A program made the translations under genes and the position numbers. Shown one piece after another: positions 6,371 through 19,953 of a stretch of 35,372 nucleotides of DNA. Position 1 is the stretch's first letter. The number at the start of each line of letters is the position of its first letter. The notes beneath the pieces are model-generated. The model was not told where the DNA came from. It saw only the letters and a list, made by a program, of their open reading frames with translations, and searched no databases. The stretch lies in IMG/VR virus record IMGVR_UViG_3300046331_000020, positions 1 through 35,372 of that record. One strand, 5' to 3'. Source of the stretch: a virus.

Positions 6371-7540
6371 TTATACCTTGAATAGAGTCGCTTGACCTTT
6401 AATCGCAGCAGTTCCAGAAGAACACGTTGCGAAAATAGTTAAAGTTCCAGAAGAAATAGAACCAGAGAAAGTAGTGTTACTGTTTGCGCTTTGCATTTCA
6501 GTTGCTACTGTATAGTTTTCATTAAATGTTACTGTAGTACCATCATGCATAAACAACATTTCCATAATCCTGTATGCACTACCATTTGTGACAGAAAAAA
6601 TCACTTTGCCAGAACGGTAAGTAGCAGATGGTATAGCTAATATTGCAGTTGGCGATGTACCAGAAGTAGAAACAGTCAACCCTCTTGTTGTCATTATATG
6701 ATCGTCAGTTTGCCATCCAGTCGCAGCCCCCCAAACGATAGTCTTATCAGTAGCACCCTTTAGGGTAATACCGCCACCTTCAGCAGTAGTATCGGTTGGG
6801 CTAGCCACATCACCAATAATAACGTTCTTGTCTTCAACGACTAAGTTGACTGTATTGATGTTTGTAGTAGTACCGTTGACAGTCAAGTTACCATTAACAG
6901 TAAGGTCTACAGTTGTTACTGATGTTAATCCAGCAAGATTAGTAGAAGCACTACCCAGAGAAATAACTGTAGTGCCAATTGTAACGTCGGCAGTTGCCCA
7001 TGTAGGAGCATAACCTGCACCAGCAGATTTCAAGAATGTTCCAGAAGCACCAGCTGTAATGAATGTAGATAAACCAGTATCAGCCTGAATAATCAACTGT
7101 CCAGCAGAACCACCAGCAATGTTTGTTGCTGTTGCAGCCAGATTAGATGTACCAGCAGAAATTGTAGAAGCAGAAACCCAAGTCGGAGCACCAGTACCAC
7201 CAGATACTAACAACTGACCAGATGTACCAGCAGAAGAAAGAGATAATCCACCAGAAGTAGAATAAGCAACAGCACCTGCCACTGCAGATAGTGAAGATCC
7301 TGTACCACCGTAAGCTAATGCTACAGCGTTACCTTGCCAAGCAGAACCAGTACTGAATGTTTTGTTTAGAGCAGTCTGTGCAGAAACGTTATTAATCATG
7401 ATGGCACCACCACCAGCGGTAGTACCATCATGTAGACGAATTGTTTTAAGATCGGTGTCAACAGAAATTTCACCAATAGCGCCTGTAAACGCATTGTTCT
7501 GTGTTGTTGTACCTCTTCTAAATTGTACTTGTGTTGACAT
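6371..7540 (-). CDS. Tail fibre-like protein with Mtd-type N-terminal domain
   Basis: Predicted fibre or virion adhesion protein, 389 residues. Residues 1-45 (VQFRRGTTTQNNAFTGAIGE, then LKTIRLHDGTT) form the short attachment domain found at the N-terminus of many phage fibres and of the Bordetella phage tropism determinant. The middle is low-complexity Gly/Ser/Thr/Ala beta repeats including AYGGTGSS and LTVNGNLTVNGTTTNINT. The C-terminal 110 residues (from about TGWQTDDHIMTTRG) are less repetitive and could be a globular head. A late promoter box overlaps the upstream stop codon and a GAGG site precedes the start. The exact fibre type (gp12-like or whisker-like) cannot be told. Confidence 0.75.
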   Translation of the reverse strand: MSTQVQFRRGTTTQNNAFTGAIGEISVDTDLKTIRLHDGTTAGGGAIMINNVSAQTALNKTFSTGSAWQGNAVALAYGGTGSSLSAVAGAVAYSTSGGLSLSSAGTSGQLLVSGGTGAPTWVSASTISAGTSNLAATATNIAGGSAGQLIIQADTGLSTFITAGASGTFLKSAGAGYAPTWATADVTIGTTVISLGSASTNLAGLTSVTTVDLTVNGNLTVNGTTTNINTVNLVVEDKNVIIGDVASPTDTTAEGGGITLKGATDKTIVWGAATGWQTDDHIMTTRGLTVSTSGTSPTAILAIPSATYRSGKVIFSVTNGSAYRIMEMLFMHDGTTVTFNENYTVATEMQSANSNTTFSGSISSGTLTIFATCSSGTAAIKGQATLFKV

Positions 7541-7560
7541 AGTTTTCCTCTAATTCGATA

Positions 7561-7567
7561 TATTTAG
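7561..7567 (-). promoter_or_regulatory. T4-type late promoter box
   Basis: CTAAATA on the minus strand overlapping the stop codon of the 960-aa gene and 20 bases before the 389-aa fibre start. It would give a very short leader ending in a GAGG ribosome site. The match is to the late box only; there is no upstream element to check. Confidence 0.45.
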
Positions 7568-10446
7568 GCTTGGGCTTCAGACCAGAATAAGTTAATGTTA
7601 GTGTTCGATGTGCTGCCAGTTGCAGCGATATTTTTAATGACGACTGCTAAAACGTCTGGACCGTCTGGATAGTTTGAATAACCACCAATAGCGGAGTTGG
7701 TTAATTCTTTCAAGTTCTTCAAGTCAATCTCAGCGAAACCTGCTGGTTGTCCAAGCGTGGAGAAGTTTTGTTCACCTGGGGTTGCTGTAGTAGAAACGCT
7801 TGTAGAAACTTGAGCGAATGATGGTTGTGATCCAAGACCAACAGTGTTAACCGCAGTCCAAGTTAATGTAGATGCGTCAATATTTCCAGGGTTTAGAATA
7901 CCATAAACCTGAACTGAAACGTCTGATTGAATCTGTAAGTTTTGTAGTAGTAACTGAGATCGGTTGATCAAGTCACGATCTCCGAAGTTGCCAGCAATCG
8001 AGTTTGATACTGAAGGAGCTAAACGTAAGAAGAATGCAGTCTTAGACTGTCCAGCAGCCAAAGAAATGTTAGTTGCAGCATAGTTAAAGTAATAACCACG
8101 ATCTGAGTCAAAGTTACCGTCCATGATGTAAGAAGAACCCCAGTGGTTAATAATCGGAGAACAAGTGCAGCTAATTAAAGTTACTGAATTAAATCCATTA
8201 CCAACAGCATGCACAGCAGCGCCACCACCAGAGAATGTTTTAGTAGAACCACCAACAAACATGGTGAACGACGCACCACGAGTTAAACCAGTTAGCTGGT
8301 TACCATTTCTGCCTGTATAAGAGATGTATTCACTATCAACTAAGATTACACCACCAGTAGATGGGAAACGAGAAGCATCAACTAGATTCATCGTTGTCTG
8401 AGTATTAGTCATAGTTGCAGCTAAACGATCTCTTGCAGATTCATTGATAGCCTGATAACGAACAGCAGTGTTACCTGTGCGCATGTACGCTTCATCGTTA
8501 ATGTTATTTTGTTTCATGCGGTGGACTTGGATCATGTTACCATCACCACCACGACACATAAAGTCAATGAAACCAGCACCGTACCAAGAGAACGAGATAC
8601 CAAGCATCTGCATCTTGTTCAGGTTAATGTTGTAACCTGAGATACCTGTACCGTCAATCTTATCGATGTTGAATTGAGATTGTGGAATACGTTGGTCTAT
8701 AACCTGTGCAATTTTAATACCTGCCGAATTATTAACACCACGATATTCTGGGTTGATAGACATAGTGTTATCATCAGTGACAGAACCAACACGATATGTC
8801 ATACCACGAATAACGATAGAATCTCCAACTTTAAGTTGTTGTGTGAAACGACAACCGTTTCCAGTAACGTTTTGTGAACCTGATGCAACAGAAACGAAAC
8901 CAGACAACTGATAAGTTGCTGAACGTTTAACCACTGCTAATTCTTGTCCATCGTACTCCCAGAAAATGCCGTTTTGGTCATCGAATGGACCACAACGAGT
9001 AGAAGCACCAACCCAATTTTTAACAGTTACACGTGGTAGGTTTGTGATAACAGCAGCGGTTGATCCAAGTGTAGTTGTGGCGTTAACGGTAAATGTAGAT
9101 TCGTTGACAATAGAAGACACGCCGTAGGTTCCATTGTATCCTGCTGTTACAACACCAGCGATCTGAATAGTTGCACCAGCTTGAAGACCGTGGTCAATTT
9201 CAGTAGAAACTGTAATGATAGAACCAACACCAGTCGCAGTGGCAGAAATTTGGTCCAAGTTCATAACTGGGTTAAACAAAACACCAGAAGTCCACAACAT
9301 ACCTTTACCAGATTGGTAACGCATATATTTCTTAGTTTGACGAGAAACAGAAGCACCATGTGATGGCAAGAATGTACCAATGTTAACACCGCCATCAAAT
9401 GGACGATGTTGAACATAAGCATCTGATCGAGTATAAGTCTTGGCAATGATACCAGAGTTTGCAACCGCACCACCAACTCGAGCAGTGAATGTGAATGTAG
9501 TGCCAGAAGGTACGGTTTCAACGAAGAAGTTACCGCCCATTAAAGCGTGGTTTGTTCCACTAGAAGTAATGATGTTAACAATCGGAGCACCAGCAACTAA
9601 ACCATGATTAGCAGAACATGTTACTGTAATCTTAGATGGAGAGTTAGCGTCAGAAACATATCCAGTAATCGGTAGATCTGCTCCTGCATAGAAACCACCA
9701 CGACGAGCATATGTTGATTGGTTGTAAACAGATGTTCCATTTACACCAACGATACCTTTAGCGAAGAATGTAAATGTATTAGCGTCAGGAACTGAAGATA
9801 CTACGAATGCACCTTCAGCACGTGCAGCGTTTGAAACACCAGCTGCACCGAATATAATAACGGGTTGAGCCAAAGAAAGACCATGAGCTTGTGAACAAGT
9901 GACAGTCATAACAGATGGATTACCACCGTCTGATGTAATGTTAGTCATGAATAAGTCAAGACCTGGCTTTTCGTAAATACCTGGAATACCACGAATGTCA
10001 GAATAGTTCTGCCACTTAGTTGGCTGTAGACCATATTCAAAGTCGGCATCAATCATGGCCATTGGCTGGGCAACACGTTGTCGTTCGATAGCATCAACAC
10101 CGAATGCATACGGGCGAACAATGTTACCGATTTGTTTTGGAGCGTCTGTGTAGATAGCAATCTTATCAGAAGACAACATAGAAGCTGTGTCAGCAGCGAA
10201 TGTTACTGTACTTGCACCCACTTGCTCAGAATACTGGGAAGAATCTCCAGTGAACGTAGTGTCATCTGGATTGTATGTGATGGTACCATTCTTAGTAGGA
10301 TCACCAATCGCATAGATGTTTGTTTGCTGTGTCTTGTTCGCAATAATTAGTAGTTGAGTCAGATCAACTTTTCCAGGGAATTTTAAACTACCAATACCTG
10401 CTGCATTTGGAGAGAAGATGTATTTTTCAATTAACTGACGTGCCAT
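7564..10446 (-). CDS. Large virion structural protein with repeated HGL modules
   Basis: A 960-residue protein of the kind found among tail/baseplate genes of marine T4-like phages; its role is not known to me. The N-terminus MARQLIEKYIFSPNAAGIG is non-repetitive to about residue 170. Three modules of about 58 residues follow, at about 173-231, 266-323 and 402-461. Each has a [IV]TV..-HGL core, then G-x-[FY]-V-x-[ST]-[IV] and TFT[FV]. Near residues 680-710 ILVDSEYISYTGRNG and LTGLTRG form another phage-common motif. The last third, from SYIMDGNFDSDRGYYF on, looks like a single folded domain. It lies between two fibre genes, so a fibre-anchoring or baseplate-periphery role is inferred. An AAGGAT site precedes the ATG. 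Confidence 0.75.
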   Translation of the reverse strand: MARQLIEKYIFSPNAAGIGSLKFPGKVDLTQLLIIANKTQQTNIYAIGDPTKNGTITYNPDDTTFTGDSSQYSEQVGASTVTFAADTASMLSSDKIAIYTDAPKQIGNIVRPYAFGVDAIERQRVAQPMAMIDADFEYGLQPTKWQNYSDIRGIPGIYEKPGLDLFMTNITSDGGNPSVMTVTCSQAHGLSLAQPVIIFGAAGVSNAARAEGAFVVSSVPDANTFTFFAKGIVGVNGTSVYNQSTYARRGGFYAGADLPITGYVSDANSPSKITVTCSANHGLVAGAPIVNIITSSGTNHALMGGNFFVETVPSGTTFTFTARVGGAVANSGIIAKTYTRSDAYVQHRPFDGGVNIGTFLPSHGASVSRQTKKYMRYQSGKGMLWTSGVLFNPVMNLDQISATATGVGSIITVSTEIDHGLQAGATIQIAGVVTAGYNGTYGVSSIVNESTFTVNATTTLGSTAAVITNLPRVTVKNWVGASTRCGPFDDQNGIFWEYDGQELAVVKRSATYQLSGFVSVASGSQNVTGNGCRFTQQLKVGDSIVIRGMTYRVGSVTDDNTMSINPEYRGVNNSAGIKIAQVIDQRIPQSQFNIDKIDGTGISGYNINLNKMQMLGISFSWYGAGFIDFMCRGGDGNMIQVHRMKQNNINDEAYMRTGNTAVRYQAINESARDRLAATMTNTQTTMNLVDASRFPSTGGVILVDSEYISYTGRNGNQLTGLTRGASFTMFVGGSTKTFSGGGAAVHAVGNGFNSVTLISCTCSPIINHWGSSYIMDGNFDSDRGYYFNYAATNISLAAGQSKTAFFLRLAPSVSNSIAGNFGDRDLINRSQLLLQNLQIQSDVSVQVYGILNPGNIDASTLTWTAVNTVGLGSQPSFAQVSTSVSTTATPGEQNFSTLGQPAGFAEIDLKNLKELTNSAIGGYSNYPDGPDVLAVVIKNIAATGSTSNTNINLFWSEAQA

Positions 10447-10455
10447 TGTATATCC

Positions 10456-11070
10456 TTAGAAGCCGAAAATAATAGAGTAACCGAGATAGTCTGATTTGAC
10501 TGACTGGTCAATGTTGTTCAACGAAATAATACCTGTGAAACTTAGAACACCTAAGTCATAGATGTTATTTGTAGTTCCTGATACTAAACCCTCATCTTCG
10601 CTAACAGTGATCACACCATCTGTGACCAACCCCATATCATATTGCGAAGATGCGAAAACAGCAGAAGCAACAACAGCATTAGAATCAGCGTTGACCCATT
10701 GTGTGCCGTTGTATGTAAGAACTTGTTGTGTTTTAGGGACAGCGAGGTTAACGTCACTAAGAGTAGCCAACGCACCTGCATTTGGAGAAGACCACTGGAC
10801 ACCAGATCCAGTAGACATAAGAACTTGTCCAGAATTACCAATACTACCATTAACAGATAGTGTTCCTGCTAGAACAGGAGAAGACAGAGTTTTATTTGAC
10901 AGTGTTTCGGTTGCAGAAGATGAACCGAGATATGCTATAGTATTGGAAGAGTTCTTGAAATACAGTTTACCATCAGCATAGTTTAATGCTAACTCACCGT
11001 AAGCCAAGTCTGTCGTCAGTGGCACCTTTGCGGCGACTGAGGACTTCTTGAGTATGATTTGATTACTCAT
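10456..11070 (-). CDS. Short tail fibre-like protein with Mtd-type N-terminus
   Basis: A 204-residue virion protein. Residues 1-45 (IILKKSSVAAKVP, then AYGELALNYADGKLYFKN) match the attachment-domain type seen in the neighbouring 389-aa and 750-aa fibres. Next come LSNKTLSSPVLAGTLSVNG and QVLTYNGTQWVNAD repeats typical of fibre shafts. The C-terminal 70 residues (from about VFASSQYDMGLV) are a compact beta-rich segment ending in GYSIIFGF. An AGGAAG site precedes the start. It is separated from the 750-aa fibre by a strong hairpin and a late promoter box, so it begins a new transcription unit that continues into the 960-aa gene 10 bases on. The precise role is unknown. Confidence 0.7.
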   Translation of the reverse strand: MSNQIILKKSSVAAKVPLTTDLAYGELALNYADGKLYFKNSSNTIAYLGSSSATETLSNKTLSSPVLAGTLSVNGSIGNSGQVLMSTGSGVQWSSPNAGALATLSDVNLAVPKTQQVLTYNGTQWVNADSNAVVASAVFASSQYDMGLVTDGVITVSEDEGLVSGTTNNIYDLGVLSFTGIISLNNIDQSVKSDYLGYSIIFGF

Positions 11071-11080
11071 TCATCTTCCT

Positions 11081-11114
11081 AAAAAGGTTAAACGCTGGGG
11101 TAAAAACCCCAGCG
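11081..11114 (-). terminator. Terminator-like hairpin after the 750-aa fibre gene
   Basis: On the minus strand CGCTGGGG and CCCCAGCG (11093-11114) form a perfect eight-pair stem with loop TTTTTA, followed by a T-rich run TTTAACCTTTTT. It sits 19 bases past the fibre stop codon. A late promoter box lies just upstream at 11124-11130, so new transcripts would carry this hairpin near their 5' end. Confidence 0.7.
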
Positions 11115-11123
11115 GACTAATTG

Positions 11124-11130
11124 TATTTAG
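11124..11130 (-). promoter_or_regulatory. T4-type late promoter box
   Basis: CTAAATA on the minus strand, just after the 750-aa fibre stop and 54 bases before the 204-aa gene. It is placed immediately upstream of the terminator-like hairpin at 11093-11114. Confidence 0.5.
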
Positions 11131-11132
11131 TC

Positions 11133-13385
11133 TTAGTATGTACCACCGTCGATGTTGAATCCATCGAGAGTAGAAGTTGCAGCACCAGCACCAGTAATAT
11201 TAGCAGCAACTGTTACGTTACCAGAAACACCAAGAGTGGAGTTAAGAGTTGTTGCACCGCTAACTGTCAATGTAGAAGTTAGTGTAGCTGCTCCGTTAGC
11301 TGCAAGAGTTGTGAACGCACCAGATCCACGAGTAGTGGCACCAATGTTAGAAGCGTCGATAGTCTTGTTTGTTAAAGACTCAGCTCCAGCTAAAGTGGCC
11401 AGTGTACCAGTAGTTGGTAATGTGATGCTTGTGGCACCAGTCATTGTCAATGTAGTGGAATATGCACCTGCAGTTGTAAGGTTACCACCAAGAGTGATAG
11501 TCTTAGAACCGTTATTAACACCAGTACCACCATAAGTTGGAGATACGATAGTGGCATTCCACACACCAGTTGTAATTGTACCAAGTGTAGTTAGTGAAGT
11601 CTGACCAACATAAGTTGATGCGATATCAATAGAGTCTGAGTTAACTGTGATGCGGTTATTAGTACCAACAACATCTAGAACACCAGAACCGTAAACTAGA
11701 CCAGCGCCAGCCAATGAAGATTTTAATTGTAGCGCATCAGAAACGATTTCGATACCACCAGAACCTGCAACAACTACATCAAGAGTATTACCAGATTTTG
11801 TTAAGGCGTTACCAGCAACGATCTGTCCAGCACCAGAGAACTGAGTGAAGACGATTGCGTCAGTGCCAACTGTGAGTGGAGCATCAGAAGTGATAACGAA
11901 ACCATTGTCACCATTTAATGTACCTTGTTCAACGAACAAGAATAGACCTGGAGATACTTCGTTTGGAGCATCAGCATCAGAAGCACGTGCCCATGCACCA
12001 GAAGCAACAACGTAGATACCGTTTTGAGAACCAGTTGTTTGGTCTTTAACTAGAACACGATCGCCAACACTAAGAGCAACACCGTCAATAGTTTGAGTAT
12101 TACTTAGAGTGATGTTACCAGTAGTGGCAGCACGAACAGATTGTTTAACATCCAAACCAGCACGAGCAGCGTCAACATAAGCCTTTGTGGCAGCATCTTG
12201 AGCATTAACTGGATCTGCAAGACCAGTGATGGTATTTGAACCCATCGCTAGGTTACCACTTAGAGACATACCAGCGAATGCTGGAGTTGCGCCAGAGTGG
12301 ATGTTCTGTGGTAGGCTTAATGTTACTGCAGCAGTTTCAGTTCCAGAACCAGATACGTTTACTTGGTTAGCAGTACCTGCAATAGTAGCAACATAGTTAC
12401 CAGTAGTGTCAGATCCAAGAGCAACTGAGTCTGCTTGGATAGTTGCAGTGATAGTTACGTCTGAAGAACCATTGAATGACACAGAACCAGCTACGTCGCC
12501 GCTCAATGTGATTGTACGAGCAGTTTGTAATGTAGTCGCAGTTGATGCGTTACCAGCCAAAGCTGCAGTAATTGTACCAGCAGAGAAGTTACCAGAAGCG
12601 TCACGCTTAACGATGGCAAGCGCAGTATTTGCGTTAGTGGCGTTAGAAGTGATTGTTACTGCGTTATTTGTAACAGCGGCACTCAACCCATTTGTACCAG
12701 CAAACGTTAGAGTGTCACTTAATAGTGCTACGCCATCTGTACCAGTATCGCCAGCAATGTTTAGAGTAGTCGCTAATGCTGCAGTACCAGCTGCAGTTAA
12801 TTGACCTTGAGCATTAACTGTGAATGTTGGGATAGCAGTAGCAGAACCATAGCTACCAGCAGTAACACCAGTATTAGTGATAGAAAGAGTTGTTGTGTTG
12901 CTAGCATCACTTACATTAGAAGTGATACCAGTACCAGCAGTAATAGTACCACCAACTGCATCATAGATGAACTCAGTTAGGGATGTATTGTTGTCGCCGA
13001 TGTATAAGTTAGTAACAACTGTCTTACCAGTACCGTTTGGTGTGATTAGTAAATCACCATTGGTATTAGTTGTGCTTAGCGTGTTACCGTTAAGTTGTAA
13101 GTTATCAACTAATAGGTTGTCGATCTTGCTATCAACGTCAGTGATAATAGCAGATGACGCTGTTAGAGTTCCCTTGTTGTGATCCAACATGTCGGTAAAG
13201 AACTTACCGCCGATAACCACGTGATTGACTGCGTTACCAGCAGTCTCTGTACCCATACCAATGTATAAACGATCACCGCCGTTTGAACCATTGTCTGTTA
13301 AGGCTGAATACGCTAATTCACCTGCTCCCAATGTACTTGGGTTGCCAGATGTACCAGAACGTTTAATTCTAATAATAGATGCCAT
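11133..13385 (-). CDS. Long tail fibre-like protein with Mtd-type N-terminus
   Basis: A 750-residue fibre protein. Residues 1-50 (IRIKRSGTSGNPSTLGAGEL, then DRLYIGMGTE) are the short attachment domain. The shaft is built of repeats such as GVTAGSYGSATAIPTFTVN, TATTLQTARTITLSG and GTITTGVWNATIVSPTYGGT, and near residue 390 carries MGSNTITGLADPVNAQDAAT. These are standard phage-fibre elements. It ends LDGFNIDGGTY, a C-terminal pattern shared with the 81-aa protein just upstream. It is preceded by a GGAG site 14 bases after that gene. It probably contacts the host surface or links such proteins; whether it is the main receptor-binding fibre cannot be read from the sequence. Confidence 0.82.
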   Translation of the reverse strand: MASIIRIKRSGTSGNPSTLGAGELAYSALTDNGSNGGDRLYIGMGTETAGNAVNHVVIGGKFFTDMLDHNKGTLTASSAIITDVDSKIDNLLVDNLQLNGNTLSTTNTNGDLLITPNGTGKTVVTNLYIGDNNTSLTEFIYDAVGGTITAGTGITSNVSDASNTTTLSITNTGVTAGSYGSATAIPTFTVNAQGQLTAAGTAALATTLNIAGDTGTDGVALLSDTLTFAGTNGLSAAVTNNAVTITSNATNANTALAIVKRDASGNFSAGTITAALAGNASTATTLQTARTITLSGDVAGSVSFNGSSDVTITATIQADSVALGSDTTGNYVATIAGTANQVNVSGSGTETAAVTLSLPQNIHSGATPAFAGMSLSGNLAMGSNTITGLADPVNAQDAATKAYVDAARAGLDVKQSVRAATTGNITLSNTQTIDGVALSVGDRVLVKDQTTGSQNGIYVVASGAWARASDADAPNEVSPGLFLFVEQGTLNGDNGFVITSDAPLTVGTDAIVFTQFSGAGQIVAGNALTKSGNTLDVVVAGSGGIEIVSDALQLKSSLAGAGLVYGSGVLDVVGTNNRITVNSDSIDIASTYVGQTSLTTLGTITTGVWNATIVSPTYGGTGVNNGSKTITLGGNLTTAGAYSTTLTMTGATSITLPTTGTLATLAGAESLTNKTIDASNIGATTRGSGAFTTLAANGAATLTSTLTVSGATTLNSTLGVSGNVTVAANITGAGAATSTLDGFNIDGGTY

Positions 13386-13399
13386 CTTTTATTTCTCCA

Positions 13400-13645
13400 T
13401 TAAAATTCTCCGCCTTCCATGTTTTGCGCATCGAGGGTGGTTGTGGATGTCCACTTATTTGTTGTTGTTTTGTATACCAAAATAGACCCATTAACTCTAA
13501 CGCTGGTATCAACGTCCGCAATATTGGACACTGATTCTACGACGGCAGGGTTGGCCACGTTTGATGAAGAAAGTGTAAGAACACCCTCAGAGACTGCTAT
13601 CTGAAGTGCTTCATCTGCTTGTACAATAGCTATTGTATCTGTCAT
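13400..13645 (-). CDS. Small virion-associated protein with fibre-type C-terminus
   Basis: An 81-residue protein without a known name. After about 45 residues comes SVRVNGSILVYKTTTNKW, a shaft motif common in phage fibres, and the chain ends LDAQNMEGGEF. That ending aligns with LDGFNIDGGTY of the 750-aa fibre (pattern L-D-x-x-N-x-[DE]-G-G-x-[FY]). It sits four bases after the 111-aa gene and 14 bases before the 750-aa gene, with consistent spacing and a ribosome site for the latter, so it looks like a real member of the operon. It could be a short fibre adaptor; function unproven. Confidence 0.7.
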   Translation of the reverse strand: MTDTIAIVQADEALQIAVSEGVLTLSSSNVANPAVVESVSNIADVDTSVRVNGSILVYKTTTNKWTSTTTLDAQNMEGGEF

Positions 13646-13649
13646 TATT

Positions 13650-13985
13650 TTAAATCTGTGTTATTTGAGCATTCACTGTTACAATGCCTTCTACCACTCT
13701 TGTTTTAGTGCCAGAAGGTGAGGTAATTTCTACGTCATATAGCCATCGACCCGCAGGGATGGCTGATGATTGATCTGAATCGAGTTGGAGGCGAACTTTT
13801 CCGTTCGCTGCGTCGTAGATAGACGCTGTGAAATTATAGGCTACAGATGAGCTATATGACTTTCTCATCTGAGAATTAGCCATGTACCCAGTTAAATTTA
13901 GTGCTTGTCCGTTAGTCGCAGCTACAGTGATAATGTTACTGTAGTTCGCTCCCGCATCCACAAACAGATTGCTTATTGTCGCCAT
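13650..13985 (-). CDS. Small tail/baseplate protein (BppU-N-like)
   Basis: A 111-residue, all-beta-looking protein. The segment NGKVRLQLDSDQSSAIPAGR, then WLYDVEITSPSGTKTRVVEG, resembles the N-terminal domain of upper-baseplate and fibre-attachment proteins of tailed phages. That domain usually describes a small beta-sandwich with a G-R-[WY]-x-Y-D-V-x-[IV] core. No catalytic motif is visible. It is the first gene after the PP-loop ATPase and has its own perfect TATAAATA late box about 30 bases upstream. The 81-aa protein and the 750-aa fibre follow closely, so I infer a part in attaching that fibre. The family name is tentative. Confidence 0.65.
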   Translation of the reverse strand: MATISNLFVDAGANYSNIITVAATNGQALNLTGYMANSQMRKSYSSSVAYNFTASIYDAANGKVRLQLDSDQSSAIPAGRWLYDVEITSPSGTKTRVVEGIVTVNAQITQI

Positions 13986-13999
13986 CGTTCAATCCTAAA

Positions 14000-14013
14000 A
14001 TGATTCTTATCAT
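14000..14013 (-). other. Weak stem-loop between the PP-loop gene and the 111-aa gene
   Basis: Minus strand ATGAT, loop AAGA, ATCAT, followed by TTT. The stem has only five AT-rich pairs, so termination would be weak. It starts two bases after the late box at 14016-14023, so a transcript from that promoter would begin inside its left arm. Confidence 0.3.
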
Positions 14014-14015
14014 CT

Positions 14016-14023
14016 TATTTATA
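14016..14023 (-). promoter_or_regulatory. Perfect T4 late promoter box TATAAATA
   Basis: TATAAATA on the minus strand in the 55-base gap between the PP-loop ATPase and the 111-aa gene. It is an exact match to the T4 late consensus and is the best promoter in the window. Confidence 0.75.
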
Positions 14024-14040
14024 AACGAGGAGATTTGTAA

Positions 14041-15078
14041 TTAGTCGTCCAGAATGTTATGGAATCCTTTTAGTAGGAAAATCCACTGTGGTCTATTAAC
14101 GTTAAAATTTGAAATTTTCTTGGGCTTGTTCAAAGAGTATTCATGTTCACCAAGTTCTGCCAAAGTTTCTCTCATTTGCCATCTGTGAGTATTCGGGTTT
14201 CCTTTGATTTTGGTGAATGGTTCATTGGTATTAATAGCCCATCTTTGGAAATCATCAGTATTAAAGAATCCAATAATTCTTTCTGCTTTTTCTCCTCCTT
14301 GAATCATAGTCCTGTGTTCATATAATGCAGTATACCAGTCTAAGTTGAAGATACAATACCATCTAAGATCATTTACAGTTTCTAGCTTCTTGGGAGAAGC
14401 CTTAATCATCGGATCAAAAAACTCTAATAGATTAGAGTCGATATGTTTCTCGTATGACTCATAAATTGTCTTTGGTGTGCCAAGAGTATGGTGAAACATT
14501 GCAGTTTCTCCTGTGGCAAAGAAATCGTCTGTTGGTCCAAATAGTTGATTACCACACATCCCACTAACGTAAATACAATCAGTTTCCTGATACGCTAACT
14601 CATTATCTGTTGCAGTTTGTATAATGTATTTGAATTCGTGCTTTAGTCTTCTATCGAACATATCGCCAGATTCGATAATAGAATTATATGTACCATATAT
14701 CCTAACTTGTTCTGGATCATTAGCATAATGTCTTAAAAGAAGAAGGATATATGTACTGTCGATTCCACCTGACCATAGAACATAGATGGTCTTACCTGTA
14801 GCTAGAAGTTGTTTGGCTCTTTCTTCAGCTACTGCATTAAAAGATTTTGTAGAAAACCCTAATGGGATTGGATGGATATCTTTAGCTATGTTTAAGTAGT
14901 GTGGAATAGACTTAGTTCTATCATACACCATATTATGTTTGTTCAACCCAAACTTGTTGTATGTGTCGAGAAGGTTATCGCTATATTCTTCTGACAAGAA
15001 TGGTGCCATAAGATGTTTTTTACTTTGAATTATCTCTGGTACGATGTGGGTGTTATAGTATAGAATCTCTGGTCTCAT
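14041..15078 (-). CDS. PP-loop ATPase, asparagine-synthase-like
   Basis: A 345-residue nucleotide-binding enzyme. LWSGGIDSTYI at 101-111 holds the PP-loop signature SGGxDS, which binds ATP and adenylates a carboxylate or similar group. VSGMCGNQLFGP at 171-182 resembles the second conserved loop of asparagine synthase domains (SG-x-x-x-[DN]-x-LFG). There is no N-terminal Ntn glutaminase domain: the chain starts MRPEILYY with no Cys at position 2, so it would need free ammonia or another nucleophile. The product is unknown; amide formation, tRNA or peptide modification are all possible. The gene has its own GATAAATA promoter and an AAGGAT site, and is preceded by a strong terminator, so it is a separate cassette within the fibre region. 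No signal peptide, so cytosolic. Confidence 0.8.
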   Translation of the reverse strand: MRPEILYYNTHIVPEIIQSKKHLMAPFLSEEYSDNLLDTYNKFGLNKHNMVYDRTKSIPHYLNIAKDIHPIPLGFSTKSFNAVAEERAKQLLATGKTIYVLWSGGIDSTYILLLLRHYANDPEQVRIYGTYNSIIESGDMFDRRLKHEFKYIIQTATDNELAYQETDCIYVSGMCGNQLFGPTDDFFATGETAMFHHTLGTPKTIYESYEKHIDSNLLEFFDPMIKASPKKLETVNDLRWYCIFNLDWYTALYEHRTMIQGGEKAERIIGFFNTDDFQRWAINTNEPFTKIKGNPNTHRWQMRETLAELGEHEYSLNKPKKISNFNVNRPQWIFLLKGFHNILDD

Positions 15079-15093
15079 GATATCCTTAAAACG

Positions 15094-15114
15094 AAAAAGG
15101 GAGCCGAAGCTCCC
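15094..15114 (-). terminator. Rho-independent terminator after the TRAP-type gene
   Basis: Minus strand GGGAGC, TTCG tetraloop, GCTCCC (15099-15114), then TTTTT. This is a textbook intrinsic terminator located 20 bases past the solute-binding-protein stop. The late box at 15118-15125 overlaps it functionally: a start about six bases downstream would fall inside the left arm. Confidence 0.88.
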
Positions 15115-15117
15115 TAG

Positions 15118-15125
15118 TATTTATC
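15118..15125 (-). promoter_or_regulatory. T4-type late promoter box for the PP-loop gene
   Basis: GATAAATA on the minus strand, one base off the T4 late consensus, 40 bases before the PP-loop ATPase start and directly upstream of the terminator hairpin. Confidence 0.6.
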
Positions 15126-15133
15126 GCATCAAA

Positions 15134-16081
15134 TTAGTGTAGTTGAATCTTCTCAACTAGACCTGGAGTGAAGTAGTCAGCAAACTTAGCGTAAACTGGA
15201 GCAGTGACTTCTTTGAAACGTGCTTCTTGTTCAGCAGTCATCTTAACAACTTCAACACCCTCAGCTTCACATTGAGCCAAGATGTTTGGAATATCAGCAA
15301 CAGATTCACGACGCTCTTGACGAGCAGCATTGAATGCAGCAGTAGACAAGATTTCTTGAGTTTCAGCATCGAACTGCTTGAAGAAGTCTTGGTTAACGAT
15401 GATAGAAGTCAAGAACAAGCTATGTGCTGTATCATTAACAACTTTGAAAGACTTATGTTGATCTAATGGGAACACACGAACGTAAGTAGATTCACCAGCT
15501 TCAATAACTCCAGAGTCAGCTGCAGCGTTCATTTCTTCTAAAGCGATGTGCTCATTAGGAATAGCGCCAAGCAACTTGAATGTCTCAACAGCAACAGGAG
15601 AACGGCTAGTGCGAACAGTGCGACCTTGCCATGCTTCTACAGTATCAGCCTTAAAGTTAGCTGGAACAACACGGTATCCACCAGAGTAAGTGAAAGACAT
15701 AGCGTGAGTGTTAGAATTAGCAGCAACGCCAGCCAATAGATCCATACCAATAGAACCTTCTAACACTACATCAGCGTGATCGTGGTCACGGAACAGGAAT
15801 GGAAGATCTAGGGCGTGCAGGTCTTTGTTGTAATCAGCTAACCAAGTAGTGTAGATATGGCTCATTTCAATAGTGCCATTATCAACTAATTGCATCAAAG
15901 CATCTTTAGTGATTTTCTTGCCACCGTTATATTTGTTAGTATAGTCAGTTAAAGAAAGAACTTCGATGTCGAAAGCACCATTAGTTTTCTCATTAACTTC
16001 TTTAGCGAAACGCTCCGCTACTTTTAAAAATAAGCCAATAGGTTCGTGTGCGATCACCCATTTTACATGCTTAATAGTCAT
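15134..16081 (-). CDS. TRAP-type (DctP family) solute-binding protein without signal peptide
   Basis: A 315-residue protein with the whole fold of periplasmic solute-binding proteins of TRAP transporters. It has the VKWVIAHEP first strand, KVAERFAKEVNEKTNGAFDI, the LDLPFLFRDHDHA segment at 91-103 and WQGRTVRTSRSPVAVETFKL at 151-170. R157 sits where the family keeps the arginine that grips the ligand carboxylate. NQDFFKQFDAETQEIL follows near 230. Such proteins normally have an export signal; here the chain begins MTIKHVKW directly at the mature fold, with no hydrophobic N-terminus. No DctQ or DctM membrane gene is nearby. It overlaps the 103-aa gene by four bases (ATGA) after a good AGGAG site, and ends at a strong terminator. 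A virion-displayed or ligand-sequestering role is inference. Confidence 0.88.
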   Translation of the reverse strand: MTIKHVKWVIAHEPIGLFLKVAERFAKEVNEKTNGAFDIEVLSLTDYTNKYNGGKKITKDALMQLVDNGTIEMSHIYTTWLADYNKDLHALDLPFLFRDHDHADVVLEGSIGMDLLAGVAANSNTHAMSFTYSGGYRVVPANFKADTVEAWQGRTVRTSRSPVAVETFKLLGAIPNEHIALEEMNAAADSGVIEAGESTYVRVFPLDQHKSFKVVNDTAHSLFLTSIIVNQDFFKQFDAETQEILSTAAFNAARQERRESVADIPNILAQCEAEGVEVVKMTAEQEARFKEVTAPVYAKFADYFTPGLVEKIQLH

Positions 16082-16389
16082 TCGGTTTCTCCTAATTTGC
16101 TGGTATCAAATATCCAGCTTTGTGTTTGTTCTTTAAAATTCATAAATCTTTTAATCACAGTTACTCTGTTATTTATAAGATTTCTCATTGTATTTATGTC
16201 AGGAATCTCTTCCTTATTTAGGATATCAGAGACTGGAATCACCGTGTCTCTGTGTCCATATTCTTTAGTGTTCGAGTCGTATATAAAGTAATCTTTCATC
16301 GAAAACCACTCCAAGTTACCGTCCCCTTGTTCAATAGATCTTGGAAACTGTCTAATCTCGATTACATATCCATTAATAAATGAACTCAT
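16078..16389 (-). CDS. Small protein of unknown function between the radical SAM and TRAP genes
   Basis: A 103-residue protein I do not recognise. It has no cysteine, no signal peptide and no membrane segment. The N-terminal half alternates hydrophobic and polar residues (GYVIEIRQF, LEWFSMKDYFIYDS), suggesting beta strands, and the second half (TMRNLINNRVTVIKRF) looks helical. It is translationally coupled on both sides by ATGA overlaps: with the radical SAM stop at 16386-16389 and with the TRAP-type start at 16078-16081. Such coupling suggests the three products work together. Its size would suit a substrate-carrying or leader-binding adaptor for the radical SAM enzyme, but no sequence motif proves this. 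Confidence 0.75.
   Translation of the reverse strand: MSSFINGYVIEIRQFPRSIEQGDGNLEWFSMKDYFIYDSNTKEYGHRDTVIPVSDILNKEEIPDINTMRNLINNRVTVIKRFMNFKEQTQSWIFDTSKLGETE
16170..16177 (-). promoter_or_regulatory. Possible internal late promoter ahead of the TRAP-type gene
   Basis: An exact TATAAATA on the minus strand inside the 103-aa gene, about 90 bases before the TRAP-type start. Two related boxes lie just upstream (CATAAATA at 16191-16198 and CTAAATA at 16215-16221). The DNA is AT-rich, so chance matches are possible. Confidence 0.4.
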
Positions 16390-17774
16390 GCTGCTACAAT
16401 AGGAATGATTTTTTTAGGTTTTCTAACCTTCTCTGGTTTACCTTTAGTCCACCAGAAGATATCTTTACGGTCTTCTCTTAGTGGACCATCAATATACTCT
16501 GGAATGCAACCTGTCATTTCTTCGATAGCAATACAAAATTCTACAATATTGTCACTATATGCATTGTCACAAGAGGCTTCCCATAGTGGTCCAGTTAAGA
16601 ACATACAAGCACCCTTACAAATATGAATAACTGGGCAGCTTGGGCATTCTTTACGATCACTCCAGTGTGTTCCAGTATCGAGCCTTGTATTAGCTAAGTC
16701 TGAAACAGTACCTAGTTTGTGTGAAAATCCAGATGGATTGTTAGACACAGAACTAACGTTTTGGCAAGTTAAAACATTTCCGTTTAAGTCTACTGCTATG
16801 TTTTCTGCTTTGTCCATACCACATTTTTGTGGCAGAGATTCTATTCGAGTACCATCTATAATAGAGGTAACAAAACCTGAAACCTTTTGGCCAATCGTGG
16901 CAAATCTACTAACCTTACCAGTACGTAACTCGTCCAGCGCCACAGATCTAAATCGAATATCTTCTTCACCATCCAACAACGAATTGGCCATACCACCTTC
17001 GTCATAAGCATCAACAAACGTGCCTTCGCCTATAACCAAATGTTGAATATAATCTGCACCGATTTCATTAGCTACAAATTTAACAAAGAATGCTTCTATT
17101 CCCGCACGACTAATATTTTTAGAGTTAATCATAGAATTAAAACTAAACATCTTCTTTGGGGCGAGACGTTTGTATAAATCTATGATACCGATTTTAGAAT
17201 CTGGATCATCTAATGGATCTGGACCACGCACTGGTTGTCCTGGTCCATCATGGGATACTGCCACCCCGAATCCCATTGATTCTAACCAATCATTCTTTTC
17301 TTTATCTAATAAACTACCATTGGTAATTACTGACATAGACCCGTTAGGATACTTAGCCTTAATAGCTTCTGCTAATGGCTTAAATGTTTTCCAATAGACA
17401 AAAGGTTCTCCACCCCAAAACTCGAAGTGTGAACCTTTTCCTAAACCATCTTCTCCACCTTCATACCAATTGCTCATATTAGCAACAAACGGATCTACGT
17501 CATTAAGATTAGTAGAATCTGCATGTGGAACAAAACGCTGATTGCAGTAATCGCATTCAAAATTACAAGAAAGACCCAACTGAATTTTAATAGTCTTTAG
17601 GTTTTTCTTACCATGCTCAATCTTAGCTGGCTCTTTAACTTCATCTTGTATCTTAACGTTACTAAGAATTGGTGTATCATCACCCCACTTTAGTAAACTT
17701 AATGAACTATCATAAGTTATTTTTTTATGAGTACTGTCCGCTGGGCACCATGCTGTAATATCAAAAATCGCCAT
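16386..17774 (-). CDS. Radical SAM/SPASM protein- or peptide-modifying enzyme
   Basis: A 462-residue enzyme. The radical SAM cluster motif CX3CX2C is at C70, C74 and C77 (SCNFECDYC), followed by the SAM-binding FWGGEP at 119-124. The C-terminal SPASM domain is complete: C318, then G332-x4-C337, then C377-x2-C380-x5-C386-x3-C390, then C402, as in enzymes holding two auxiliary Fe4S4 clusters. Family members cross-link or oxidise side chains in peptides (RiPP maturases) or mature sulfatases. No sulfatase with a C/S-x-P-x-R site is in the window. The nearest Cys-rich candidate substrate is the 393-aa fibre encoded two genes upstream. The gene has its own promoter/terminator element and a GAGG site, and is coupled to the 103-aa gene. 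The substrate is unproven. Confidence 0.93.
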   Translation of the reverse strand: MAIFDITAWCPADSTHKKITYDSSLSLLKWGDDTPILSNVKIQDEVKEPAKIEHGKKNLKTIKIQLGLSCNFECDYCNQRFVPHADSTNLNDVDPFVANMSNWYEGGEDGLGKGSHFEFWGGEPFVYWKTFKPLAEAIKAKYPNGSMSVITNGSLLDKEKNDWLESMGFGVAVSHDGPGQPVRGPDPLDDPDSKIGIIDLYKRLAPKKMFSFNSMINSKNISRAGIEAFFVKFVANEIGADYIQHLVIGEGTFVDAYDEGGMANSLLDGEEDIRFRSVALDELRTGKVSRFATIGQKVSGFVTSIIDGTRIESLPQKCGMDKAENIAVDLNGNVLTCQNVSSVSNNPSGFSHKLGTVSDLANTRLDTGTHWSDRKECPSCPVIHICKGACMFLTGPLWEASCDNAYSDNIVEFCIAIEEMTGCIPEYIDGPLREDRKDIFWWTKGKPEKVRKPKKIIPIVAA

Positions 17775-17832: not shown

Positions 17833-18762
17833 TTAAAGTGTCTTAGTGAACGTGTTTCTGTTTACCCAGTATTTGAAACCCATCTTCACTCTAACTAAAT
17901 CACCAGAATTCATACCAGTTGTTACAACTTTAAATGAACCAGAACCATTGGTTACTGGAATTTTCAATTTAGGTAAGTATCCACTGTCTTGTACCAAGTA
18001 GATAAAGTCGACTTTATCTGATGTGACATCGAAATTAACTGTCAAAATATCATCAGTTTGTGCAGAAGAAGTGACATTAATTTCTGGCATTAGTTCAAAT
18101 GTTAATCTGATAATAGGATCCAGCGGATGTTTAGTTAAATTACCAGTAAAAGTCACTGTATGCTCTGCATAGTTAGTACCAGCTAAATCAATGTTGAAGT
18201 ATTCAATTTCTGGAGTGTTATTCCAATATTCACCGTCAGCTTTAACTGCTGGTCTAATGATAACAGGAATAATATCATCTGCAGATGGGTTATCTTTAGT
18301 TACAAAGAACGCAATCACTGTAGCATCACCAAAGGTGTTAAAATCTTTTGTTGGTAATGTATTAGCATATGAGTTGATTAAATCACCCTCAAGTACAGTG
18401 TGTTCTTGTGCATCTGCAGTTTCATCGTCTGGAGTGTTTGTATTAACAACAGAATCTTTAATATACCATAAAGTTTGTCCATCAGCAGTGCTAAACATGC
18501 TGGTGTCAATTTTAAATTTATTGATTACTCTGTTCGAAGTTTCATTTTTGAAAACAACATTCAATATTGTTCCAGATAAATTCAAATCCCAATTAAATGT
18601 TACAGGAATTTCCTGAAAGTTAGTATCAGTCCACTCTGTCTCTGTTGGAAACTCTCCAGCCCACTCTACATCGGGTAGAGACTGTTGGAACAATGTGTTT
18701 GGAATAGCACCCTTTTGTGAAAGATATCTTCTTTTGTATTGTATTTTAGTTACGTATTGCAT
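17833..18762 (-). CDS. Virion-region protein of unknown function, 309 aa
   Basis: I do not recognise this 309-residue protein. It has no cysteine, no signal peptide and no repeated shaft elements. Alternating strands such as IPVTFNWDLNLSGTILNVVF, ATVIAFFVTKDN and HTVTFTGNL suggest an all-beta protein, perhaps two or three sandwich domains. The C-terminus VRVKMGFKYWVNRNTFTKTL is basic and aromatic. It starts 10 bases after the Cys-rich fibre stop behind an AAGGAT site and ends just before the terminator-like hairpin, so it shares a transcript with that fibre. Position suggests a fibre partner, chaperone or distal adhesin; none of these is shown by the sequence. Confidence 0.72.
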   Translation of the reverse strand: MQYVTKIQYKRRYLSQKGAIPNTLFQQSLPDVEWAGEFPTETEWTDTNFQEIPVTFNWDLNLSGTILNVVFKNETSNRVINKFKIDTSMFSTADGQTLWYIKDSVVNTNTPDDETADAQEHTVLEGDLINSYANTLPTKDFNTFGDATVIAFFVTKDNPSADDIIPVIIRPAVKADGEYWNNTPEIEYFNIDLAGTNYAEHTVTFTGNLTKHPLDPIIRLTFELMPEINVTSSAQTDDILTVNFDVTSDKVDFIYLVQDSGYLPKLKIPVTNGSGSFKVVTTGMNSGDLVRVKMGFKYWVNRNTFTKTL

Positions 18763-18771
18763 ATGTTATCC

Positions 18772-19953
18772 TTAGCAGTTGCAATTACAGTTAGTGCAAT
18801 TGTAGTAATGGTGATGCGGATCCATGTTGTGGTTCGTATCTAAGTGCAGACGCATATAACAGTTGATGATAACGTTACCGCAGTTACCACCAGCGGCACC
18901 AGCGCCACGCCCAATGGAGGCGTTGTTGTGGTTACCATGCTTAGTGTTATGTGGAACCCATCCACCGTAGTTACCTAAGTCGTTTGCAAACTGAGATAGG
19001 TGCCCCGGACGACCAGAGACATTACCCCATGCAACAGAAGAAGCAGAACCAGCGTTGCCACCAATGTTTGTTACTGTAACAGCACCCGTCATACCTTGTA
19101 CAGATGTGACTGGGACAGAAACTACAACAGCACCCGTCATACCTTGTACAGATGTAACGTTTGCATTGATAGTTGGATTGCCAGCAACACCATTACCATT
19201 ATCAACAGTAATACCAGCGCCTGCAACGATAGAACGTGCAGCAGCGACACCAGAAGATGTGATAGTAGTAAGACCAGCACCAACACTAGACAGTGCTGCT
19301 AAGTTAGCAGCGTAAGCCTGGACATCTGTACCAATACGAACACCCAATGTTCCACGAGCAGTGGCAGCATCAGCATCGTCAATTAATGTACGACCATATG
19401 ACGAAAGAGTAGTTGTGCTCGCAGTACCTGAACCAGTGAAGTATGGCAGAGCATCAACGCCAGAAGTAACAGAAGCTAATGCTGCTAATTCATAGTCAAA
19501 TGCTTGTACGTCTGTGCCGATAGCTAAACCAAGAGCAGTGCGAGCACCAGCAGCAGTACTAGAACCAGTACCACCGTCAGCAATAGACAAGTCTGTAATA
19601 CCAGTAATAGTACCAGAAGTGATTGCAGCAACTCCAGTATGAGTACCAGAGAAGTTGGTAGCTGTAATAACGTTAGCTGAGAAGTTACCACCAGAACGAG
19701 TTACAACGCTATTACCAGCTTGGTCTGTGGAGCTAGTGTTTAAGCCATCAAGTAAATCAGCGTCTAGCCCAGAGCCAGATCCATCGACAGTTACTAACTT
19801 AGCCAGTACATCTGCAGCAGTATAGCTAGCAGCAGTTTGGGCTAATTGAAGTTGTGTGTTTAAGTTATTAAAGTTTGCATCGACTTCAGCGTTAGTAAGA
19901 GGACTACCCTTACCAGCACGAGTCGTGATTGTTGCAGCGTTAACTGATGCCAT
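18772..19953 (-). CDS. Tail fibre protein with His/Asn/Cys-rich C-terminal tail
   Basis: A 393-residue fibre. The N-terminus ([20 protein letters not shown], then NNLN) is a common fibre start. The shaft contains [20 protein letters not shown], two copies of IGTDVQA[FY] and two copies of [31 protein letters not shown] element near 308-327 leads into the tip. The last 60 residues are unusual: [38 protein letters not shown] and a final NCTNCNCNC. All six cysteines (358, 365, 386, 389, 391, 393) lie in the last 36 residues, and each directly follows Asn. HxH pairs recall the metal-binding tip of the T4 long fibre. It follows the 75-aa coiled-coil gene and is two genes upstream of the radical SAM enzyme. 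The stop codon directly follows the final Cys codon. Confidence 0.87.
19079..19155 (-). repeat. Direct repeat in the Cys-tailed fibre gene
   Basis: A 29-base segment at 19079-19107 recurs exactly at 19127-19155, a 48-base period. It encodes two copies of [11 protein letters not shown] spaced 16 residues apart, an element common in phage fibre shafts. The near-identity at DNA level suggests a recent duplication. Confidence 0.8.

Follow-up and report, generated by a model that had tools for sequence, protein, structure and literature searches.

The window analysed here, a 35,372-nt stretch of viral DNA (IMG/VR record IMGVR_UViG_3300046331_000020), encodes on its minus strand, at positions 15134..16081, a 315-aa protein which is a homologue of the TRAP solute-binding protein DctP by sequence, fold and family arginine, and which is without the two features that define a transporter component, export and membrane partners. 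Failing on both counts, it should not be classified among the receptors of TRAP transporters. The protein belongs to a large, mostly phage-borne subfamily marked by the N-terminal motif W[VL][IL]AHEP (IAHEP-type DctP hereafter), and the unexported form is intact in many large T4-like phages. Given that the export tag was lost long ago, that expression is probably late and that the gene usually lies beside an ATP-using enzyme predicted to join carboxylates, the protein is most likely intracellular and not a component of nutrient uptake.

Fold and export status of the phage DctP

The gene product scored 150.7 bits against the Pfam DctP model (PF03480; E 6.8e-44, cut-off 23.4), with residues 20-301 aligned to positions 13-284 of the 286 in the model. 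It was above the cut-off of the NF037995 profile (110.3 versus 50) and below that of TIGR00787 (111 versus 175), and a sequence search matched it to dozens of solved TRAP receptors. An AlphaFold model built with 36 family members as input reached a pLDDT of 95.1 and was placed by Foldseek on TRAP receptors (4ovs, 8t9t, 4ovr and others) at TM 0.85-0.90, displaying the two-domain receptor fold. Alignment to solved DctP proteins placed R157 at the arginine typical of the family, equivalent to Arg-147 of SiaP, a residue that 96.8% of DctP-type receptors possess and by which carboxylates are selected (PMC4646407). Of the representatives compared, 27 of 28 from phages and all seven unexported bacterial ones retain this arginine. 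A first-pass annotation, made from the sequence alone, had placed at these coordinates a full-length DctP-like fold with R157 whose chain starts at the first strand of the mature domain; both points held, the gene being on the minus strand and the first modelled strand spanning residues 4-10.

Compared with DctP-type TRAP receptors (PF03480), such as HiSiaP, IseP (8t9t) and 4ovs, the phage protein is alike in fold, length, R157 (SiaP Arg-147), R137, E197, DLPF and H220, but it has neither a signal peptide nor an accompanying DctM, carries its own IAHEP/TYSGG cleft signature, is linked to a synthetase and is preceded by a late-type promoter motif. An unnamed phage DctP family, phrog_31178, matches it over nearly the full length (E 1.6e-32); since the aligned part starts only at position 35 of the profile, its members probably have some 34 additional N-terminal residues which the window protein lacks. 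No close homologue was found in a collection of isolate phages, where the best match was 26% identical, and in a viral structure library DctP was represented by only two entries of half length, both from uncultured phages, alongside distant Bug/TTT-type matches. Phage-borne TRAP and Bug-type receptors had been annotated before in uncultured phages in that library, and no description of a phage DctP without export was found in the open-access literature.

The start codon (16079..16081, minus strand) lies within a four-base overlap, ATGA at 16078..16081, with the stop of a 103-aa gene (F3; 16078..16389, minus strand), and a Shine-Dalgarno-like AGGAG is located at 16089..16093. An in-frame TGA at 16106..16108, eight codons upstream of the start, leaves at most eight codons before the ATG, so that the missing signal peptide reflects the sequence itself and is no artefact of the start codon chosen. 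Across 59 distinct viral N-terminal regions of the family, no signal peptide is encoded and the longest open stretch upstream of the N-terminal motif is 32 codons. An upstream start yielding a signal peptide, raised in the first-pass annotation, is ruled out in the window by the in-frame stop and in the family by these N-termini. A frameshifted fusion of F3 with DctP as the signal source is likewise ruled out, F3 beginning with MSSFINGYVIEIRQ and having no hydrophobic leader.

Typical Sec-type signal peptides are found on the TctC-type receptors (F15) and on a second DctP (F35, in L040 and L041) encoded in some of the same loci, so that these phages retain export signals where needed and the loss of export is specific to IAHEP-type DctP. 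The phage TctC/Bug receptors, and TctA/TctB in locus L117, resemble IAHEP-type DctP in representing phage-borne carboxylate receptors and sometimes adjoin it; what sets them apart is the presence of signal peptides and, in L117, of membrane partners. L117 is a phage contig which carries TctA, TctB, TctC, two unexported DctP genes and two F1 genes at about 7000-15950 (locus coordinates). Having the fold and arginine of a working receptor, IAHEP-type DctP might still leave the cytosol by an unrecognised route and feed the host's own TRAP transporter. This is very improbable, however, because none of the 59 distinct sequences has a hydrophobic N-terminus, some of the loci also encode TctC or F35 with a Sec-type signal, and a search restricted to the DctM subunit found none in any of 14 phage records of up to 250 kb. 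The last result also agrees with the earlier observation that no transporter membrane genes accompany the gene.

A T4-type late-promoter-like motif, TATAAATA, is located at 16170..16177 (minus strand), 96 nt upstream of DctP and inside the 103-aa gene. The total count of TATAAATA in the window is not above chance, and the case for late expression therefore rests on the family. There, 34 of 63 distinct upstream regions carry the motif within 250 nt of DctP, with 1.8 expected from its frequency in the loci and 52 occurrences at 775 other ORF starts, although the regions counted are not fully independent, many of them belonging to a single syntenic tail cassette. In L089, L092, L100, L115 and L128, where DctP is not part of that cassette, the motif is likewise found, 33-60 nt ahead of the gene. 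As judged from this motif, DctP is probably expressed late in infection. Such timing would suit either action on late products or a place in the virion, and would speak against an early anti-defence sponge. A counter-defence protein that sequesters a small host signal molecule inside the cell would suit a cytosolic product with an intact cleft from a phage-enriched family, but we regard it as highly improbable, since it is at odds not only with the late-type motif but also with the bacterial homologues in non-phage loci, the recognition of carboxylates by the family arginine and the steady linkage to synthetases instead of anti-defence genes.

Phage and bacterial members of the subfamily

Two IMG/VR scans for DctP relatives, the first giving 53 stretches and the second 327, of which the best 80 were taken, provided about 130 viral loci. 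Pairwise dN/dS values in the family were 0.03-0.25 with a median of 0.135, indicating strong purifying selection, and together with the conservation of the protein they rule out a pseudogene or erosion. The erosion of pocket residues in phage copies that the first-pass annotation had considered was thus not observed; the cleft residues are conserved.

One genome scan recovered nine bacterial sequences with the IAHEP motif (40-50% identical). Profile searches indicated that bacterial IAHEP-type DctP is rare, with 10 of 290 Bdellovibrionota genomes carrying it and, in the classes of two proteobacterial matches, 1 of 369 and 1 of 385 genomes, each being the seed genome. The bacterial proteins fall into two types, twelve with a signal peptide, from Bdellovibrionota, and seven without. 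Four of the seven unexported members are encoded in a cluster of an MFS transporter, F165 (a 200-aa HxD-type oxygenase-like protein) and DctP. In Bacteriovoracaceae (L131 and L139) this unexported cluster is located beside flagellin, with RsmE-like and PrmA-like genes around it and no phage genes. The order is DctP-F21-F1-F165 in L135, F71 is present in L136, and DctP adjoins F1 in L173, the DctP of the latter having an ambiguous upstream start without a clear signal. Neither F165 nor F21 received an identity from Pfam. The exported IAHEP-type DctP adjoins genes for an acyl-AMP ligase and an MBOAT protein in two Bdellovibrionota loci (L133 and L137), with an ACP gene in L133; near this Dlt-like set, NMT1/SsuA-type ABC genes were also observed.

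In a maximum-likelihood tree, the IAHEP subfamily formed one group against canonical DctP (100/100), and the exported Bdellovibrionota proteins branched outside a cluster of 35 rows from phages and bacteria, all unexported (91/88; 99/97 for 34 rows). The exception is a divergent, long-branch second DctP copy of phage locus L042, which groups with the exported rows. As the exported members branch outside the unexported clade, export was probably lost in one main event, the unexported bacterial members standing beside the phage ones. The exported proteins (L133, L137, L138 and others) are members of the same subfamily and differ in the presence of a signal peptide; of the 54 positions conserved in unexported DctP, 40 are likewise conserved in 80% or more of the exported members. 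W8, A11, H12, P14, T131-Y132-S133-G134 and R202 are common to exported and unexported IAHEP members and absent from canonical DctP. By alignment to solved receptors, and not from coordinates, W8, A11, H12, P14, T131-G134 and R202 appear to line the cleft. The presence of this signature in both forms suggests that the same ligand may have been kept in a new compartment.

The synthetase-like protein F1 and other neighbours of DctP

In the window, the gene order is tail fibre (F4; 18772..19953), radical SAM (F2; 16386..17774), F3, DctP and F1 (14041..15078), all on the minus strand, and the same order is found in most first-scan loci, 34 of 53 of which hold both F2 and F3. The tail operon described in the first-pass annotation is therefore correct for the window, where the surroundings of DctP are tail genes, but it does not extend to the family as a rule, only part of which has this setting: DctP was also observed in unrelated phage contexts with F21, TctC, sulfotransferase-like and oxygenase-like genes. 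Location within the tail-fibre operon in a large part of the relatives, the late-promoter-type motif upstream and a loss of export that suits a protein assembled in the cytosol would all accord with a virion component, either in the tail or adhesin tip or ejected, which would serve as a receptor handle by binding a small molecule or a TRAP transporter of the host. We consider such a role unlikely, because unexported homologues are found on bacterial chromosomes without tail genes and the gene recurs in several unrelated phage contexts. In addition, no fusion of DctP to a tail, trimerisation or adapter domain was found in about 130 viral loci, the length being constant at about 315 aa, and the cleft signature is common with exported Bdellovibrionota relatives, which would be unexpected for a surface handle.

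The first-pass annotation had offered either a virion part or a cytosolic ligand binder tied to the radical SAM enzyme. The cytosolic binder is favoured by the unexported chromosomal relatives (L131 and L139) and by the lack of fused tail or adapter domains. The tie is not one to the radical SAM enzyme in particular. A PP-loop gene (F1 or F71), mostly asparagine-synthetase/beta-lactam-synthetase-like, is located within 6 kb of DctP in 22 of 28 phage representatives, as against 9 for an F2-type radical SAM gene; the other 19, some of them short contigs, are without the latter. An obligate tie of DctP to radical SAM is ruled out by this count and by the fact that most radical SAM loci have no DctP. 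The radical SAM gene follows F1 in L009 and L111, where the F3-DctP-F1 unit is intact, F3 thus staying with DctP and F1 when the radical SAM gene moves. F3 itself, to which no function is assigned, gave no match in Pfam, PHROGs or NCBIfam.

F1 is the steadiest partner of DctP. A PP-loop gene was also found near DctP in three of seven unexported bacterial representatives and near none of the exported bacterial genes, just three of which have long flanks. The six phage representatives without one lack it in the available sequence, which for L094 and L092 comprises about 8 kb on both sides. Eight large phage records contain one to three F1-like genes each, and in every one of them the best F1 match is no more than about 2.4 kb away from DctP. 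The AlphaFold model of F1 (pLDDT 91.6) matched TsnB9 (Z 12.9), beta-lactam synthetase (12.8) and asparagine synthetase (12.7), followed by GMP synthetase (10.8) and LarE (9.9), entries of the asparagine synthetase B (AsnB) group (Z 12.9-11.3) lying above other PP-loop enzymes. F1 thus resembles asparagine synthetase B, beta-lactam synthetase and TsnB9 in its PP-loop synthetase fold (Z 12-13) and SGGxDS motif, and differs from them in its size (about 350-430 aa in the group of F1 proteins), in the absence of a Pfam match and in having no glutaminase domain. The window protein has 345 aa, and the alignments cover the synthetase part of the AsnB-group entries and not the N-terminal glutaminase domain. 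Invariant residues are S103, G104, G105, D107 and S108 of the PP-loop and a lysine near the C-terminus. As the Pfam asparagine synthetase model misses F1 by sequence, its chemistry is deduced from the fold and PP-loop; by analogy with these enzymes, F1 would be expected to activate a carboxylate by adenylation and to create an amide-type bond.

Other genes accompany DctP in individual phage loci. Genes for an acyl-AMP ligase, an SDR and a beta-keto acid cleavage enzyme (BKACE) occur together in L071, L082, L083, L088 and L130, joined in L130 and L071 by F21, F1, TctC and DctP. Putative fatty-acid-desaturase-like, FkbM-type methyltransferase-like and GNAT-like genes (g19, g51 and g29) are located near DctP in some of the loci L114-L130.

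The radical SAM protein F2, whose gene overlaps F3 by four bases, contains a CX3CX2C motif and SPASM cysteines, of which C70, C74 and C77 as well as C318, C337, C377, C380, C386, C390 and C402 are invariant. It scored 32 bits against TIGR04085 (cut-off 27) and falls in no named maturase equivalog, the best being PapB at 52 bits versus a cut-off of 340. Its probable substrate is the tail-fibre protein F4, which ends in NCTNCNCNC; a protein of no assigned function (F13; 17833..18762, minus strand) is encoded between the two in one subgroup of relatives. An IMG/VR scan for NCNCNC followed by a stop gave 128 matches, 93 of them at the end of an ORF of 50 aa or more and the other 35 in short chance ORFs. 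An F2-type radical SAM/SPASM gene is found within 6 kb of 62 of the 93 NCNCNC-ending ORFs, and of 48 of 52 once those followed by less than 3.5 kb of sequence are set aside, compared with none of the 35 chance ORFs; DctP is visible in the available stretch of about 10 of the 62 loci. RiPP-like maturation of cysteine-rich tail-fibre ends, independent of DctP, is thereby suggested as probable. In a second subgroup (L025, L008, L046 and others), an NC/AC cysteine-rich repeat is carried by a separate small protein (F14, about 122 aa) adjoining the tail fibre, and in L092 the cysteine repeat is on a 61-aa protein ending in NNDCNCRCNC, again with a radical SAM gene. Radical SAM cassettes have been noted in the host-recognition region of pelagimyophages (PMC7029224), for which no substrate has been named so far as we found; nor did we find a report of radical SAM action on tail fibres in the open-access literature.

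Possible role of the phage DctP

Taken together, we tentatively propose that DctP is a cytosolic, late-expressed ligand-binding protein which serves the carboxylate-activating synthetase F1, perhaps for modification of late products or the tail. DctP would bind a small carboxylate in the cytosol and hold or present it to F1, a relationship seen as gene linkage and not as physical interaction. F1 would adenylate the carboxylate to form an amide or ester bond, the target of which would probably be a late phage product, for example a tail protein. The ancestral role in transport would be gone. Least certain are the ligand of DctP, its contact with F1 and the final target. That the former TRAP receptor has become a cytosolic carboxylate-presenting (or catalytic) subunit which, with the AsnB-like ligase, attaches a small organic acid to a late protein such as the tail fibre, in parallel with radical SAM crosslinking of the cysteine-rich tail of the fibre, is a speculation to which we give low probability.

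It is also conceivable, if doubtful, that DctP is a cytosolic auxiliary metabolic gene, buffering, delivering or converting a carboxylate in the carbon metabolism of the host during infection; it might even be an enzyme descended from a binding protein. Precedent exists for binding proteins becoming enzymes, as in cyclohexadienyl dehydratase (PMC7683729), and the acyl-AMP ligase, SDR and BKACE genes near DctP in some phage loci, the full TctA/TctB/TctC set in L117 and the clustering of unexported bacterial members with an MFS transporter and F165 point in this direction. Most phage lineages, however, pair DctP with PP-loop and tail or tailoring genes and with no catabolic pathway, and a late-type motif, though compatible, is less expected for a metabolic booster. 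The service to F1 proposed above is our preferred reading.

Transporter solute-binding proteins are treated as extracytoplasmic by definition. The phage DctP subfamily has dropped export, apparently once, yet its cleft is under strong selection beside an enzyme predicted to join carboxylates. Such phage DctP genes should accordingly not be annotated as auxiliary metabolic genes for nutrient uptake. They offer a testable system for a receptor fold relocated to the cytosol and reused, possibly in the modification of the phage tail.
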